Assembly: GCA_913031435.1 (NCBI GenBank) | Contig: CAJWFD010000001.1 | Location: 1 to 64,000, forward strand | Length of the DNA: 64,000 nucleotides | Reading direction: 5' to 3' | From: an uncultured Cryomorphaceae bacterium | GTDB taxonomy: Bacteria; Bacteroidota; Bacteroidia; Flavobacteriales; Schleiferiaceae | Shown: positions 2,351 through 16,165 of the stretch, one piece after another | Layout: the number at the start of each line of letters is the position of its first letter | How positions within the stretch are numbered: the stretch's first letter is position 1 | The notes under the pieces: model-generated | The model's database searches: none | What the model saw: only the letters and a program-made list of their open reading frames with translations | Told to the model about the DNA's origin: nothing | Made by a program: the position numbers and the translations under genes

Positions 2351-2361
2351 TTGTTAATAAC
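2351..2361 (+). promoter_or_regulatory. TTGTTRATAAC box upstream of nrdB
   Basis: TTGTTAATAAC lies 26 bases upstream of the putative -33 element of nrdB, in the direction of transcription. The same box occurs in the same relative place upstream of the 40-residue NrdA-tail-like gene (15065-15075, minus) and of atpD (40847-40857). It resembles a degenerate DnaA box (TGTTRATAA against TGTGGATAA). The binding factor is unknown. Confidence 0.35.
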
Positions 2362-2387
2362 TGTGGGAAAAACCCAAATTGACCTAC

Positions 2388-2544: not shown

Positions 2545-3525
2545 ATGCAGCAGGAACCTATTCTTTCAAAAAACAAAAATAGATTTGTAATCTTCCCTAT
2601 TGAGCACAGCGATATATGGGACTGGTATAAAAAACAAGAAGCATCATTTTGGATTGCGGAAGAGATCGATCTTCACCAAGATGTTACGGATTGGAAAACC
2701 AAATTAAATGATGACGAAAGATATTTCGTCAAGCATATACTTGCGTTTTTTGCCGCATCTGATGGGATCGTAAATGAAAATTTGGCCGAGAATTTCGTAA
2801 ATGAAGTTCAGTATTCTGAAGCCAAATTTTTCTATGGTTTTCAGATTATGATGGAGAACATTCATAGTGAAATGTACTCTTTGTTGATCGATACCTTGGT
2901 GGAAGATGATGCGGAGAAATCTGAATTATTTAATGCGTTGGAATTATTTCCAGCAATTAAGAAAAAGGCTGATTGGGCATTGAAATGGATAGAGTCAGAT
3001 TCATTTGCGGAGCGATTGATTGCTTTCGCAGCTGTTGAAGGTATTTTCTTCTCCGGTGCGTTTTGTTCTATTTTTTGGCTCAAGAAAAGAGGGATCATGC
3101 CTGGGCTAGCTACATCAAATGAATTCATTTCTAGAGATGAAGGATTGCACCGTGATTTTGCTTGTCACTTACATAATGAACACCTCATTAACAAGGTTCC
3201 TGTAGAGCGAATTACCCAGATTATAGTAGAAGCTTTGGATATCGAAAGAGAGTTCATTACGGAGTCTTTACCGGTTAAATTGATTGGTATGAATTCTAAA
3301 CTGATGTCGGAGTACTTGGAGTTCGTTACGGATCATCTTTTGGATACATTGAATTGCCCTAAGGTTTATGGCACAGCCAACCCTTTCGACTTTATGGATA
3401 TGATTTCACTGGAAGGAAAGACCAATTTCTTTGAGAAGAGAGTTTCAGAATACAAGAAAGCAGGAGTTGGTGAATCACAAGAAGATCATAACATTGATAA
3501 TTCATTTGATTCAATGAATTTCTAA
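2545..3525 (+). CDS. nrdB: Ribonucleoside-diphosphate reductase, class Ia small subunit
   Basis: Makes the di-iron tyrosyl radical that the large subunit uses to reduce NDPs to dNDPs. The 326-residue protein shows the ligand pattern of class Ia R2: D73 in [10 protein letters not shown]104 and H107 in ENIHSEMY, the radical tyrosine Y111, then a glutamate in [11 protein letters not shown] and the E/H pair in [11 protein letters not shown]. Overall it resembles the eukaryote-like R2 branch rather than E. coli NrdB. The C-terminus (DNSFDSMNF) is in the place of the peptide that docks on R1. nrdA follows 41 bases downstream in the same operon. Confidence 0.97.
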
Positions 3526-3566: not shown

Positions 3567-6062
3567 ATGCGCGTATTAAAACGAGACGGTAAAAAAGAAA
3601 CCGTAAAATTTGATAAAATAACTGCTAGAATTGAGAAGCTCTGCTACGGACTCAGTGATTATGTAGATCCTGTAGCTGTAGCAAAAAGAGTAGTGGATGG
3701 CGTTTATGACGGCGTTACTACGTCAGAGCTGGACAATTTAGCCGCTGAGACTGCTGCTTCATTGACTATAAAACATCCGGATTACGCAAATTTAGCAGCG
3801 CGCATTGCCGTAAGTAATCTACATAAAAGCACAAAAAAGAGTTTTTCAGAAACGGTTACGGACCTCTATAATTACGTGAACCCGGAGAGCAATAAACCGG
3901 CACCATTAATCGCCGATGATGTCTATGAAGTCATCAGCGCTAACGCGGAATATCTAGACTCTCAAGTCATTTATGATAGAGATTTTTCTTATGATTATTT
4001 TGGATTTAAGACCTTAGAGAGATCTTACTTACTGCGTATGTATGGTAAGATTGTTGAACGTCCTCAGCATATGTTGATGCGTGTCAGTATTGGTATTCAC
4101 AAAGACGATTTACCAGCGGCTTTAGAGACGTATGAGCTCATGAGTAAAAAATACATGACACACGCGACACCAACACTATTTAATGCTGGTACACCAAAGC
4201 CGCAAATGTCTTCTTGCTTCCTACTCGCTATGCAGGATGACAGTATTGATGGTATCTATGATACGCTTAAACAAACAGCAAAAATCTCTCAAAGTGCTGG
4301 AGGAATTGGCCTGAGTATTCATAATATTCGTGGTACAGGATCCTACATTGGAGGGACTAATGGTACTTCAAATGGTATTGTCCCTATGTTGCGCGTCTTT
4401 AACGATACCGCCCGTTATGTGGATCAAGGTGGAGGTAAGCGTAAAGGTTCTTTCGCTATTTATGTGGAGCCATGGCATTCTGACATTTTCGAATTCTTGG
4501 ATCTTAAAAAAAACCACGGAAAAGAAGAAATGCGCGCGCGTGACTTATTTTACGCAATGTGGATCCCTGATTTATTCATGGAACGCGTGGAGAAAAATGA
4601 AGATTGGACCTTAATGTGTCCAAACGAATGTCCAGGACTCTTTGATTGTCATGGACAAGAATTTGTGGACCTCTATCATAAATATGAAGGTTTAGGTAAG
4701 GGTAGACGTACAGTGAAAGCTCGTGAGGTTTGGTCTAAAATAATGGAATGTCAGATAGAAACCGGCACACCTTATATGCTCTATAAAGATGCGGCGAACT
4801 TGAAGTCGAATCAGCAGAATCTAGGCACCATTCGTTCTTCAAATTTATGTACCGAGATTTTAGAATACACCTCTAAGGATGAAATAGCGGTCTGTAATTT
4901 AGCTTCTATAGCACTACCTATGTTTATAGGAGAGGATGGTGCATTTGACCATCAAAAGTTATTTGATGTCACCTATAAAGTGACCAAGAATCTTAATGAT
5001 GTTATTGATCGAAATTATTATCCAGTTGTTGAAGCGCGTAATTCTAATATGCGTCATCGACCTGTAGGACTGGGTGTACAAGGATTAGCAGATACGTTTA
5101 TAAAATTGAGAATGCCTTTCGATTCTGACGAAGCGAAAAAACTCAACAAGGAGATCTTTGAAACGATGTACTACGGAGCTATGACATCTTCTAAAGACCA
5201 GTCTATAGTAGAAGGACCATATGAAAGCTATGAGGGTTCGCCAATCTCGAAAGGTAAATTCCAGCATAACCTTTGGGATGTAGAAGACTCTGAATTAAGT
5301 GGGCGTTGGGACTGGAATGCGCTTCGTAAGGAAATAAAAAAACATGGCGTACGTAACAGTCTATTAATGGCTCCGATGCCAACTGCATCAACTTCTCAGA
5401 TTTTAGGGAACAACGAATGCTTTGAACCTTACACTACCAATGTTTATACACGAAGAGTGCTCTCAGGAGAATTCATTGTGGTGAATAAGCATTTGCTTCA
5501 TGACTTAATCGATCTTGGACTTTGGAATGAGGATATGAAGAATACCTTGATGTCAACAAACGGTTCCGTTCAGAATATTGAAGGAATACCTGACGACATC
5601 AAAGCGATTTACAAGACTGTTTGGGAAATTTCAATGAAAGATATCCTAGATATGTCGGCAGATAGAGGTTTGTTTATCGATCAAAGTCAGAGTCTCAACC
5701 TGTTTATGGAAAATCCAAACATGGGTAAATTGACTTCTATGCATTTCTATGCATGGAAGAAAGGTCTCAAAACAGGTATGTATTACTTGCGTTCTAAAGC
5801 TGCTGCTTCGGCCATTAAGTTTACGGTTAAGAAAAATGCCCAAACTGATATGAGTCCTGGGGTTTCAGGTGGTGTTGTTGAGCCAAAGAGCTCGAAAGAC
5901 ACGAAAGATGCAAAGGGTGCTCAGGCGACTCCTGCTTCTGTAGAGTCACGAGTGATTGCCCAGAAAAAAGCAATGGCTTCGATGAAAACGGAGCCTACGG
6001 CTGAGGAAAAATTGGCTTGCTCTATAGAAAGCCCAGATGACTGTGTTGCCTGCGGATCTTAA
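3567..6062 (+). CDS. nrdA: Ribonucleoside-diphosphate reductase, class Ia large subunit
   Basis: Catalytic and allosteric subunit of ribonucleotide reductase, 831 residues. An ATP-cone domain opens the protein ([11 protein letters not shown]..., about residues 1-90). The catalytic barrel follows, with the cysteine in PQMSSCFLL, the N-C-E triad in NLCTEIL and the adjacent radical-transfer tyrosines in GMYYLRS. The C-terminal tail ends [14 protein letters not shown] and carries the CxxC pair that re-reduces the active site. A low-complexity linker ([12 protein letters not shown]...) precedes the tail. An intrinsic terminator follows. A 40-residue protein at 14867-14989 repeats this tail almost exactly. 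Confidence 0.97.
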
Positions 6063-14187: not shown

Positions 14188-14757
14188 ATGAAAAGAATTT
14201 TCGCAACAGTACTTATTCTATTAGCTCCGTTATCGTCAAAGGCACAAGCAGCTTTGGTGTTAGGAGAAATAGATATGGGTATTTTGGCGAGTTATCATGT
14301 GATTATTACGGATCCCGAGAACTTTGTCTTGGGAGAAGAGTATGAGCTTGGTGGTTATTTACATGACCTGGATAATGGCGGGATCCTAGCGATTACGACT
14401 TCTTATATCCGTAATGGAGCTTTTGGTTCAAATAGCTTCTTACCGCAGAATAATTATCAAATCGGAAAGTTTAGTACGGCTAAAATGCGCTTTGGTAAAC
14501 TTTGGGAACTCAACGCTATTGATATTTTTGCTTCCGTGGGTTTTGGTTGGATGGCAGGAGCAGATTACGGGGACAGGGAAGGCTTTATTGACCTGCTTTT
14601 TATAGACCCTGGGAACCCCGTAGGGACCTTTACTATTCCACTGGGAGTAGATCTACAGTGGTATGGATTTGACGGCAGCATCAATTCCGTAGGCATCAAA
14701 TACGAAATCAACGGATGGAACAATTATCTTGGTATCGGAGCCAGCTACCTTCTCTAA
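14188..14757 (+). CDS. Putative secreted outer-membrane beta-barrel protein
   Basis: A 189-residue protein of unrecognised family. The start at 14188 gives a clear signal peptide (MKRIFATVLILLAPLSSKAQA, cleavage after AQA); the upstream in-frame ATG at 14134 would bury it. The mature part alternates polar and hydrophobic residues with many aromatic and glycine residues (FASVGFGWMAGADYG, YLGIGASYLL) and ends in a hydrophobic strand ending L-L, as in small outer-membrane barrels. It sits alone between the ahcY terminator and a convergent small gene, with no pathway context. Confidence 0.65.
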   Translation: MKRIFATVLILLAPLSSKAQAALVLGEIDMGILASYHVIITDPENFVLGEEYELGGYLHDLDNGGILAITTSYIRNGAFGSNSFLPQNNYQIGKFSTAKMRFGKLWELNAIDIFASVGFGWMAGADYGDREGFIDLLFIDPGNPVGTFTIPLGVDLQWYGFDGSINSVGIKYEINGWNNYLGIGASYLL

Positions 14758-14808
14758 GGTTCGTTAAGGTAGGTCAGATCTGGTCGGTATAAATCGGAAT
14801 ATTTAGTC

Positions 14809-14841
14809 CAAAAAAACCCGGGTACGTGCTGTAACCGGGTT
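14809..14841 (-). terminator. Intrinsic terminator for the 40-residue gene
   Basis: Read on the minus strand, AACCCGG (14841-14835) pairs with CCGGGTT (14821-14815) and is followed by a run of T (A-run at 14810-14816 on the plus strand). It lies 26 bases downstream of the stop of the small gene at 14867-14989 and supports that gene being expressed. Confidence 0.75.
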
Positions 14842-14866
14842 CGTTAAATGCTTTTTAAAGAGTGAG

Positions 14867-14989
14867 TTAGCTTCCGCATGCCTCACAATCTGGGTTTTCA
14901 ATACTGCAGGCTTTGGGTTGCTCTGCTTGTTCTAATTCTTGTACAAAGCTTGCGAAAGAATCATCCATTCCGAAATCGTTAGTATTCAT
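14867..14989 (-). CDS. 40-residue miniprotein copying the NrdA redox tail
   Basis: A short open frame with ATG at 14989 and TAA at 14867-14869. Its last 14 residues, ACSIENPDCEACGS, match the NrdA C-terminus ([15 protein letters not shown]) except for one deletion and two substitutions, and keep the CxxC pair. Residues 7-15 (GMDDSFASF) also resemble the NrdB C-terminus ([11 protein letters not shown]), the peptide that docks on NrdA in class Ia enzymes. Codons differ from nrdA at most synonymous sites (TGC AGT ATT against TGC TCT ATA), so it is not a recent copy. It has its own terminator and a plausible promoter, and a box shared with nrdB. A trans-acting reductase accessory is my inference; a decayed nrdA remnant is the alternative. 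Confidence 0.75.
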   Translation of the reverse strand: MNTNDFGMDDSFASFVQELEQAEQPKACSIENPDCEACGS

Positions 14990-15048: not shown

Positions 15049-15064
15049 CGAATATCATTTTTGC

Positions 15065-15122
15065 GTTATCAACAATTTGGTTTTTTGATTCTGTGATAGT
15101 TACGTATCGAATTTTTGATAAC
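15065..15122. promoter_or_regulatory. Inverted pair of TTGTTRATAAC-like boxes
   Basis: GTTATCAACAA at 15065-15075 is the box TTGTTGATAAC on the minus strand, facing the 40-residue gene. TTTTTGATAAC at 15112-15122 is a one-mismatch copy on the plus strand, facing the glucosaminidase gene. The two are inverted about 47 bases apart centre to centre. The rest of the 198-base divergent region holds nothing else that I can support except the palindrome at 15172. Confidence 0.4.
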
Positions 15123-15187: not shown

Positions 15188-16165
15188 ATGATCTATAAAA
15201 GATTCACTTACCTTATTTTTCTCTCCTTCTCAGTGCTTAACGCCTACTCCCAGTCTACTGTGAGGCAACAGTACGTTGCTACATACGCTCAAATAGCTGT
15301 AGATGAAATGAATAGATCTGGAATTCCAGCTTCTATTACATTGGCGCAGGGGATTTTGGAGAGTGGTGACGGACAGAGTGATTTAGCACGTAAGTCAAAA
15401 AATCACTTTGGTATCAAGTGTCACAAGGATTGGACGGGCGAGCGGGTGTACCACGACGATGACGAAAAGGACGAATGTTTCCGTAAATACAAAAATGTCC
15501 GGTTCAGTTTCGAGGACCATACAGATTTCTTAGTTAGAGGCTCTCGCTATGACTTCTTATTTGATCTTGATCTGTCAGATTATAAGGGATGGGCTAAAGG
15601 GTTGAAAAAAGCAGGATATGCCACCTCACCTAGTTATGCAGACCGCCTGATCAAAATCATTGAAGCAGCAGAATTATATGCGTATGATGATCTTCAGGTA
15701 AACACCTTACAAGTGTCTGTGAGGAATGCACCAGATGATAAGGGAACTAAGGTAAACCAGAGGAATAGAGTCGTAAGAGGCAATAAAAAGAAGTTTGTGA
15801 TTCATCGTGTAAAACACCTCACTGGAATATCTCCGTTTATTGAGCTGAAATCTGTTGAAAGTATCGAGGCTGTGGCGGATTCTATGCAAATGCGTTTGGC
15901 CGTGTTGCTTGATATAAATGACGCTACATGGGAAACTATATTTCAAGCAGGTGATCGTGTTTATGTAGACTATAAAAAACCCAATGCACAGCAGAAATGG
16001 ATGAAAGTTGTGTTCGGGCAAGATATGCGTAGGATCAGTCAAGCCTACGGAATAAAGCTCAAGAAACTCTATAAGTACAACAACTACGAGGTAGGTCAGC
16101 AACCAAAGGTTGGTGAGCAGCTGCGACTAAAGCAATGGGGTGTTTTTGAAAAAAGAGGGCGTTAG
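15188..16165 (+). CDS. Secreted glucosaminidase with LysM-like C-terminus
   Basis: Peptidoglycan hydrolase of the glucosaminidase (FlgJ/endo-beta-N-acetylglucosaminidase) type, 325 residues. The first 21 residues form a signal peptide (FTYLIFLSFSVLNAYSQ). The catalytic domain covers about 25-165, with ITLAQGILESGDGQSDLARKS containing the expected catalytic glutamate, then NHFGIKCH and a YxDRL-type segment (SYADRLIKII). The C-terminal part holds two LysM-like stretches, of which the last (MRRISQAYGIKLKKLYKYNNYEVGQQPKVGEQLRL) is the clearer. It probably acts on septal or envelope peptidoglycan in the periplasm. Its stop overlaps the convergent GldL-like gene. Confidence 0.88.
   Translation: MIYKRFTYLIFLSFSVLNAYSQSTVRQQYVATYAQIAVDEMNRSGIPASITLAQGILESGDGQSDLARKSKNHFGIKCHKDWTGERVYHDDDEKDECFRKYKNVRFSFEDHTDFLVRGSRYDFLFDLDLSDYKGWAKGLKKAGYATSPSYADRLIKIIEAAELYAYDDLQVNTLQVSVRNAPDDKGTKVNQRNRVVRGNKKKFVIHRVKHLTGISPFIELKSVESIEAVADSMQMRLAVLLDINDATWETIFQAGDRVYVDYKKPNAQQKWMKVVFGQDMRRISQAYGIKLKKLYKYNNYEVGQQPKVGEQLRLKQWGVFEKRGR

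Follow-up and report, generated by a model that had tools for sequence, protein, structure and literature searches.

Phages carry auxiliary factors for ribonucleotide reductase, such as the T4-type NrdC and NrdH proteins, which are glutaredoxins and act as thioredoxin-fold reductants. In yeast, the small protein Sml1 competes with the tail of the R1 subunit and inhibits R1. In class I and class II reductases, thioredoxin or glutaredoxin supplies electrons that reach the active site by way of a C-terminal cysteine pair (PMC4390871). In the split class II reductase of Pseudomonas aeruginosa, a separate subunit, NrdJb, acts in trans with sub-micromolar affinity, its main role being disulfide exchange (PMC4520616). 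We found no description of stand-alone tails of class Ia reductases in the open-licence PMC literature, a partial set. Here, we report the analysis of a small gene in a 64,000-nt stretch of DNA from an uncultured Cryomorphaceae bacterium (the window), together with its bacterial and viral relatives.

The small protein resembles the redox tail of class Ia NrdA in the sequence of its cysteine motif and in the extreme C-terminal position of that motif. In contrast to the NrdA tail, however, it is a separate polypeptide without a catalytic domain, additional to an NrdA that has a tail of its own. Like Sml1, the window's protein is small and has its presumed site of action around the tail and active site of R1, but Sml1 is an inhibitor and is itself no copy of the redox tail. 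T4-type NrdC and NrdH also represent phage-borne support of dNTP synthesis, whereas the tail protein corresponds to the relay of the reductase itself. NrdJb is the nearest parallel in being a separate polypeptide bearing tail cysteines, which in its case serve the catalytic subunit in trans. NrdJb is nevertheless the sole tail of its enzyme, belongs to class II, is essential and is encoded in the nrdJab operon (PMC4520616), whereas the small tail proteins are of the class Ia type, apparently additional, unlinked and mostly viral. NrdJb-like systems have a catalytic partner without its own tail; the NrdA of the window has one.

A 40-residue protein with an NrdA-type C terminus

The small gene translates to MNTNDFGMDDSFASFVQELEQAEQPKACSIENPDCEACGS (40 amino acids; Table 1) and lies roughly 9 kb from nrdBA, between what we take, from reading the sequences by eye, to be an outer-membrane-like gene (14188-14757) and a LysM/glucosaminidase-like gene (15188-16165). 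Sequence comparison gives good support for reading the final 14 residues as the C-terminal redox tail of an NrdA. When the protein was searched against its own genome, the NrdA C terminus was the sole other match, and the two C termini aligned with z of about 11, none of 2,000 shuffles scoring equally well. The NrdA end is also its top NCBIfam match, and all 53 non-member profile matches that were checked are NrdA C termini. As in an NrdA tail module, the cysteine motif stands at the extreme C terminus within NrdA-type flanking residues; the catalytic barrel PF02867 is absent (no Pfam match above the cut-off), as is PF13876, a domain present in the N4-like carrier described below. The codon differs at about 5 of the 12 tail residues common to the small gene and nrdA, and thus the small gene is no fresh copy of the nrdA end. 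AlphaFold2 predicts a helix at residues 8-21 followed by a flexible tail (pLDDT 88 at residues 11-20; mean pLDDT 72.5; remainder without regular structure). In an alignment of 38 chosen members, C28, C35, E36, C38 and G39 are invariant, that is, the cysteine trio together with the Glu and Gly of CEACG.

The first-pass annotation had described an NrdA-like C terminus, which the alignment statistics above confirm, and a separate NrdA tail protein under protein-level selection. The latter idea is well supported (dN/dS of about 0.04, see below) and reaches far beyond this genome, to phages of two bacterial phyla. It had also likened GMDDSFASF, near the N terminus, to the NrdB C terminus. We rejected this candidate docking motif because the similarity is not significant (p = 0.02-0.76 for single pairs; family-wide z = -0.02) and is no better than that to reversed NrdB; the accompanying idea that the protein competes with NrdB is therefore unsupported.

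Table 1. Positions of the small tail gene, the reductase genes and associated features in the window
Feature	Position	Strand	Basis or remark
Small tail protein gene, 40 aa	14867..14989	minus	ORF, homologues and dN/dS
NrdA-type redox tail ACSIENPDCEACGS	14870..14911	minus	residues 27-40, three Cys
Predicted amphipathic helix, residues 8-21	14927..14968	minus	consensus xF..[WF][LIV].[DE]LE
Conserved promoter element TTGTTRATAACGC upstream of small gene	15063..15075	minus	common to nrdBA
Same element, form TTGTTAATAAC, upstream of nrdB	2351..2363	plus	conserved across genus
Terminator-like hairpin with T-run 3′ of small gene	14808..14842	minus	fold -14.4 kcal/mol
nrdB, class I reductase radical subunit	2545..3525	plus	PF00268, E 1.5e-108
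nrdA, class I reductase catalytic subunit	3567..6062	plus	PF02867, E 4.4e-216
NrdA's own tail, 15 residues	6015-6059	plus	end of the window's nrdA

Homologues were detected at E 1e-19 to 1e-29 in 17 genomes of the genus, that of the window included, and in another family. The other genus copies are 83-95% identical to that of the window. A copy is present, always at the same locus, wherever a genus assembly could be seen to extend that far; the two flanking genes are only about 53-69% identical. In four genus assemblies without a match the contig stops shortly before the expected site, so that loss of the gene cannot be read from them. Across 16 distinct coding sequences, pS is 0.58, pN 0.041 and dN/dS 0.038; within the tail part, pN is 0.010 against a pS of 0.63. 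The search for homologues and selection in Flavobacteriales that the first-pass annotation had proposed thus returned members in the genus and in a second family.

All four genomes sampled from this second marine Flavobacteriales family encode a 50-residue relative (55% identity); there the gene sits in an unrelated locus and precedes, by about 300 bases, a gene read by eye as, presumably, pyrG. Further members were found neither in 394 genomes of the order nor in samples of the class and phylum, and the stand-alone members found in a scan of 84,980 species belong to those same genomes and to two further Flavobacteriales metagenome-assembled genomes carrying the second type. The proteins of the two lineages agree at 23 of 37 aligned positions. 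The genus protein is most similar to certain marine phage members, with identities reaching about 70%; the proteins of the second family are most similar to others, at about 60%. It is plausible on this pattern that genes passed between phages and bacteria twice, independently and in either direction, but 40 residues are too few for a reliable tree.

Several candidates were discarded. Weak 11-29 profile matches in several genomes are chance frames, a number of them antisense to one conserved gene that we take, by eye, to be leucyl-tRNA synthetase. Short ORFs resembling the nrdA end in genomes G429, G456 and G647 arise from a local duplication, a frameshift and a fragment, respectively. A tandem duplication 3′ of nrdA (record L098, 6539-6646) yields a 35-residue nrdA-end ORF that is not a family member.

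The conserved block upstream of the small gene in the genus contains TTGTTAATAACGC and CTCCCACAAAATC. The window's copy of the promoter element there has one mismatch to the form found at nrdB, which in most genus genomes is followed by a TGTGG-like run. The nrdB form has just 3-9 copies per genome, and both promoters were matched in all four relatives searched. From the genes recognised by eye, the remaining intergenic sites include what we take to be the promoters of dnaN, HU (hup) and rpsM, and the element also lies upstream of a presumed phosphoglucomutase-like gene in the genus (stretches L526-L555). The element may possibly mark a class of growth/replication promoters that includes the small gene and nrdBA. 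A promoter scan found no sigma-70-like site upstream of the small gene, so that what remains of the promoter suggested by the first-pass annotation is this conserved element; the terminator it suggested corresponds to the hairpin with a T-run, which is visible at the same place in most relatives but was not reported by the terminator scan. Between the element and nrdB, a strongly conserved non-coding block (window positions ~2390-2460; CCATGTTTGTAT ... CTACTCCGC) extends genus-wide; it is perhaps a structured leader, and an Rfam search of the nrdB leader returned nothing above the gathering threshold.

Tail proteins in phages

At least about 190 IMG/VR stretches encode stand-alone small proteins ending in the Bacteroidota-type tail CSIDNPDCEACGS, with 81 distinct sequences in the reduced set. 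A scan of IMG/VR with the family alignment gave 219 relatives; among the 80 of these that were listed, all are small stand-alone proteins, and nrdA is absent from their neighbourhoods. Matches listed for the tail pattern D/E-N/D-P-D/E-C-E-A-C-G comprise at least 111 small proteins, at least 8 NrdA-like long ORFs and one ORF cut by a contig end, and those for D-N-P-[DE]-x-C-E-A-C at least 78 small proteins, at least 27 long NrdA-type ORFs and 15 others, mostly contig-end cuts. In these listed matches the motif forms the extreme C terminus, as in NrdA, with one chance exception. The tail is borne by at least three different N-terminal carriers (the helix type, the MQEKLDQIKELE type and the MPTFKRVEGEHNLF type). 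Two further unrelated carriers without Pfam matches were seen in marine phages, in six and three records. Gene neighbourhoods vary among the phage groups, and in several marine phages the small tail gene lies near lysis or packaging genes rather than DNA-metabolism genes. Searches of PHROGs gave only weak matches, searches of named phages with Bacteroidota-type queries gave only NrdA or noise, and no small tail ORF was present in two stretches covering most of the genome of Maribacter phage Panino, which has its own reductase gene.

Phages of Proteobacteria encode tails of another type, CESGACKI or CEGGACKI, on unrelated carriers. A search for the Escherichia coli-type NrdA end CESGACKI recovered NrdA and a 54-residue protein in phages of about 260-270 kb. 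This protein or its relatives, annotated as hypothetical proteins, occur in Erwinia, Dickeya, Klebsiella, Raoultella, Stenotrophomonas and Serratia phages; the Erwinia, Dickeya, Klebsiella and Serratia phages with tail proteins have genomes of 212-272 kb. CEGGACKI was found in 31 viral stretches. In two it belongs to NrdA; the others encode short proteins of many unrelated kinds and a small number of larger proteins, and one carrier is a PF13876 protein. Larger phage ORFs ending in this motif have 267 (two records), 124 (two records) and 81 codons. In the one marine phage group tested, the terminase has its nearest counterparts in Flavobacterium, Cellulophaga and Maribacter phages. The tail type matches the presumed host, being of the Bacteroidota type in the Flavobacterium/Cellulophaga-like phages of this group and CE[SG]GACKI in enterobacterial phages. 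Counting both tail types, at least six unrelated carriers end in the same kind of tail, and a cysteine pair and host-type flanks persist in the small phage tail proteins read.

In coliphage N4, gp48 (record L591, 1633-2004) consists of an Acb4-like domain (PF13876) followed by the tail DDNCEGGGCKI. PF13876 is the family of the Acb4 anti-CBASS sponge (PMC11722364). Enterobacterial relatives of gp48 end in NNTCDGGGCTI, NSKCEGGGCTI, EDDCEGCKI or DDCEGGACKI, whereas the tail, an added C-terminal module in N4 gp48, is missing from the PF13876 relatives read from Pseudomonas, Agrobacterium, Achromobacter and Vibrio phages; among the N4-like versions read, only enterobacterial ones have it. When the N4 genome was compared with E. 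coli-type NrdA, the sole, weak match (residues 729-761) was the gp48 tail, and a published comparison lists N4 without rnr and two N4-like roseophages with rnr (PMC2784036). No gp48 relative was found in the first 50 kb of roseophage DSS3phi2.

The NrdA barrel was detected in none of 66 tail-bearing phage records (0/30, 0/11 complete genomes and 0/25), whereas all five NrdA-bearing positive controls were detected. Because the IMG/VR records tested are mostly fragments, their lack of NrdA is weak evidence, and the 11 complete genomes form the firm part of this result. Serratia phage PCH45 encodes a tail protein and an NrdB (record L525, 6784-7890) that ends in VGQIDADVNTEDFGDFQL, like enterobacterial NrdB, but no NrdA; its NrdB therefore presumably pairs with the host NrdA. 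In phages Y3, Yoloswag and JA13, dNTP genes (CMP/cytidine deaminase and thymidylate synthase) lie near the tail gene.

Possible roles of a free-standing tail

We propose that the small protein is a free-standing NrdA redox tail borne by a short amphipathic helix and that it would serve, in trans, the NrdA of the same cell. Its cysteines would be reduced by thioredoxin or glutaredoxin, the tail would then reduce the active-site disulfide of NrdA, and with more reduced tails per catalytic subunit turnover would rise. Phages without NrdA would encode such tails to push the host enzyme, and the bacterial gene would be a domesticated or shared version; two marine Flavobacteriales lineages keep one on the chromosome, in the genus studied under a promoter element common to nrdBA, dnaN and hup. 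Three points lead us to favour this electron-shuttle reading over inhibition or the reporting of redox state: all small tail proteins read retain a cysteine pair; NrdA-less phages repeatedly carry the tail, on proteins unrelated to one another; and in the split class II reductase the tail subunit is separate and works in trans (PMC4520616). Preservation of a cysteine pair and of host-type flanks is what a working tail, and not a simple plug, would be expected to show. Against the proposal, the NrdA of these hosts comes with a tail, so that a further one would make a difference only if tails were limiting, and the gene's place near lysis or packaging genes in several marine phages is not that of a DNA-metabolism gene. 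That trans-acting tails re-reduce and so speed up NrdA has, in our estimate, about an even chance of being correct, translation, NrdA binding, electron transfer and the activating sign all being steps that we infer. Our confidence is evenly divided, too, on the wider proposal that many unrelated NrdA-less phages convergently encode portable, host-type redox tails that drive the host reductase in trans, with two bacterial lineages keeping a chromosomal version, one of them under an nrdBA/replication-gene element.

A free tail could instead depress NrdA activity by filling its tail groove or active-site channel, much as the small yeast protein Sml1 competes with the R1 tail. The gain to the phage could lie in a starved host, in a halt to dNTP synthesis late in infection or in withholding dATP from defence systems that consume dNTPs. 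Less dNTP can benefit a phage, given that phage escape from DRT9 maps to phage nrdA/nrdB (PMC12483538), and the tail gene stands among late genes in several marine phages. However, a pure competitor needs no redox cysteines, yet all the small tail proteins read retain a pair; moreover, the bacterial gene is preceded by the element found at the nrdBA and dnaN promoters, and the NrdB added by PCH45 argues for more reductase activity. We therefore regard such a decoy as unlikely.

Quite unlikely, in our assessment, is that the tail serves as an address, directing its carrier (the helix, the Acb4-like sponge or another phage protein) to NrdA or thioredoxin; dNTP synthesis might in this way be concentrated where the phage replisome works. 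The recurrence of one kind of tail on six or more unrelated carriers speaks for this, and the larger ones, such as N4 gp48 with its Acb4-like domain, would suit a docking tag too; many carriers, however, comprise only about 20 residues in addition to the tail, with no obvious cargo domain.

The tail might also mimic the natural substrate of the host thioredoxin system and capture that system for a phage purpose unrelated to the reductase. In class I and II reductases, the C-terminal cysteine pair is where thioredoxin or glutaredoxin acts (PMC4390871), and T7 polymerase employs host thioredoxin (cited in PMC2784036). Such mimicry is hard to square with the retention of non-cysteine tail residues in the form of the host NrdA and with the nrdBA promoter element of the bacterial copy, and we hold it to be very unlikely. 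Although duplications and frameshifts of the nrdA end do occur, as in G429 and G456, a chance ORF is refuted by the dN/dS of 0.04 and the wide distribution, and the conserved start, upstream element, terminator-like hairpin, independent loci and phage carriers, together with the purifying selection, leave debris of a duplicated nrdA end, or any other non-functional ORF, with virtually no probability.

Stand-alone tails occur in hundreds of viral sequences, that of coliphage N4 among them, which points to viruses supplying the host enzyme with additional tails. If the electron-shuttle reading is correct, it would represent a new form of viral takeover of dNTP synthesis, in which the virus supplies a spare moving part for the host enzyme rather than an enzyme. 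For N4 gp48, and for the many short phage ORFs that lack annotation, it provides a concrete hypothesis, and it makes the action of reductase tails in trans testable in a laboratory phage, N4 in E. coli K-12. It would also make a catalytic accessory peptide an example of a mobile module.
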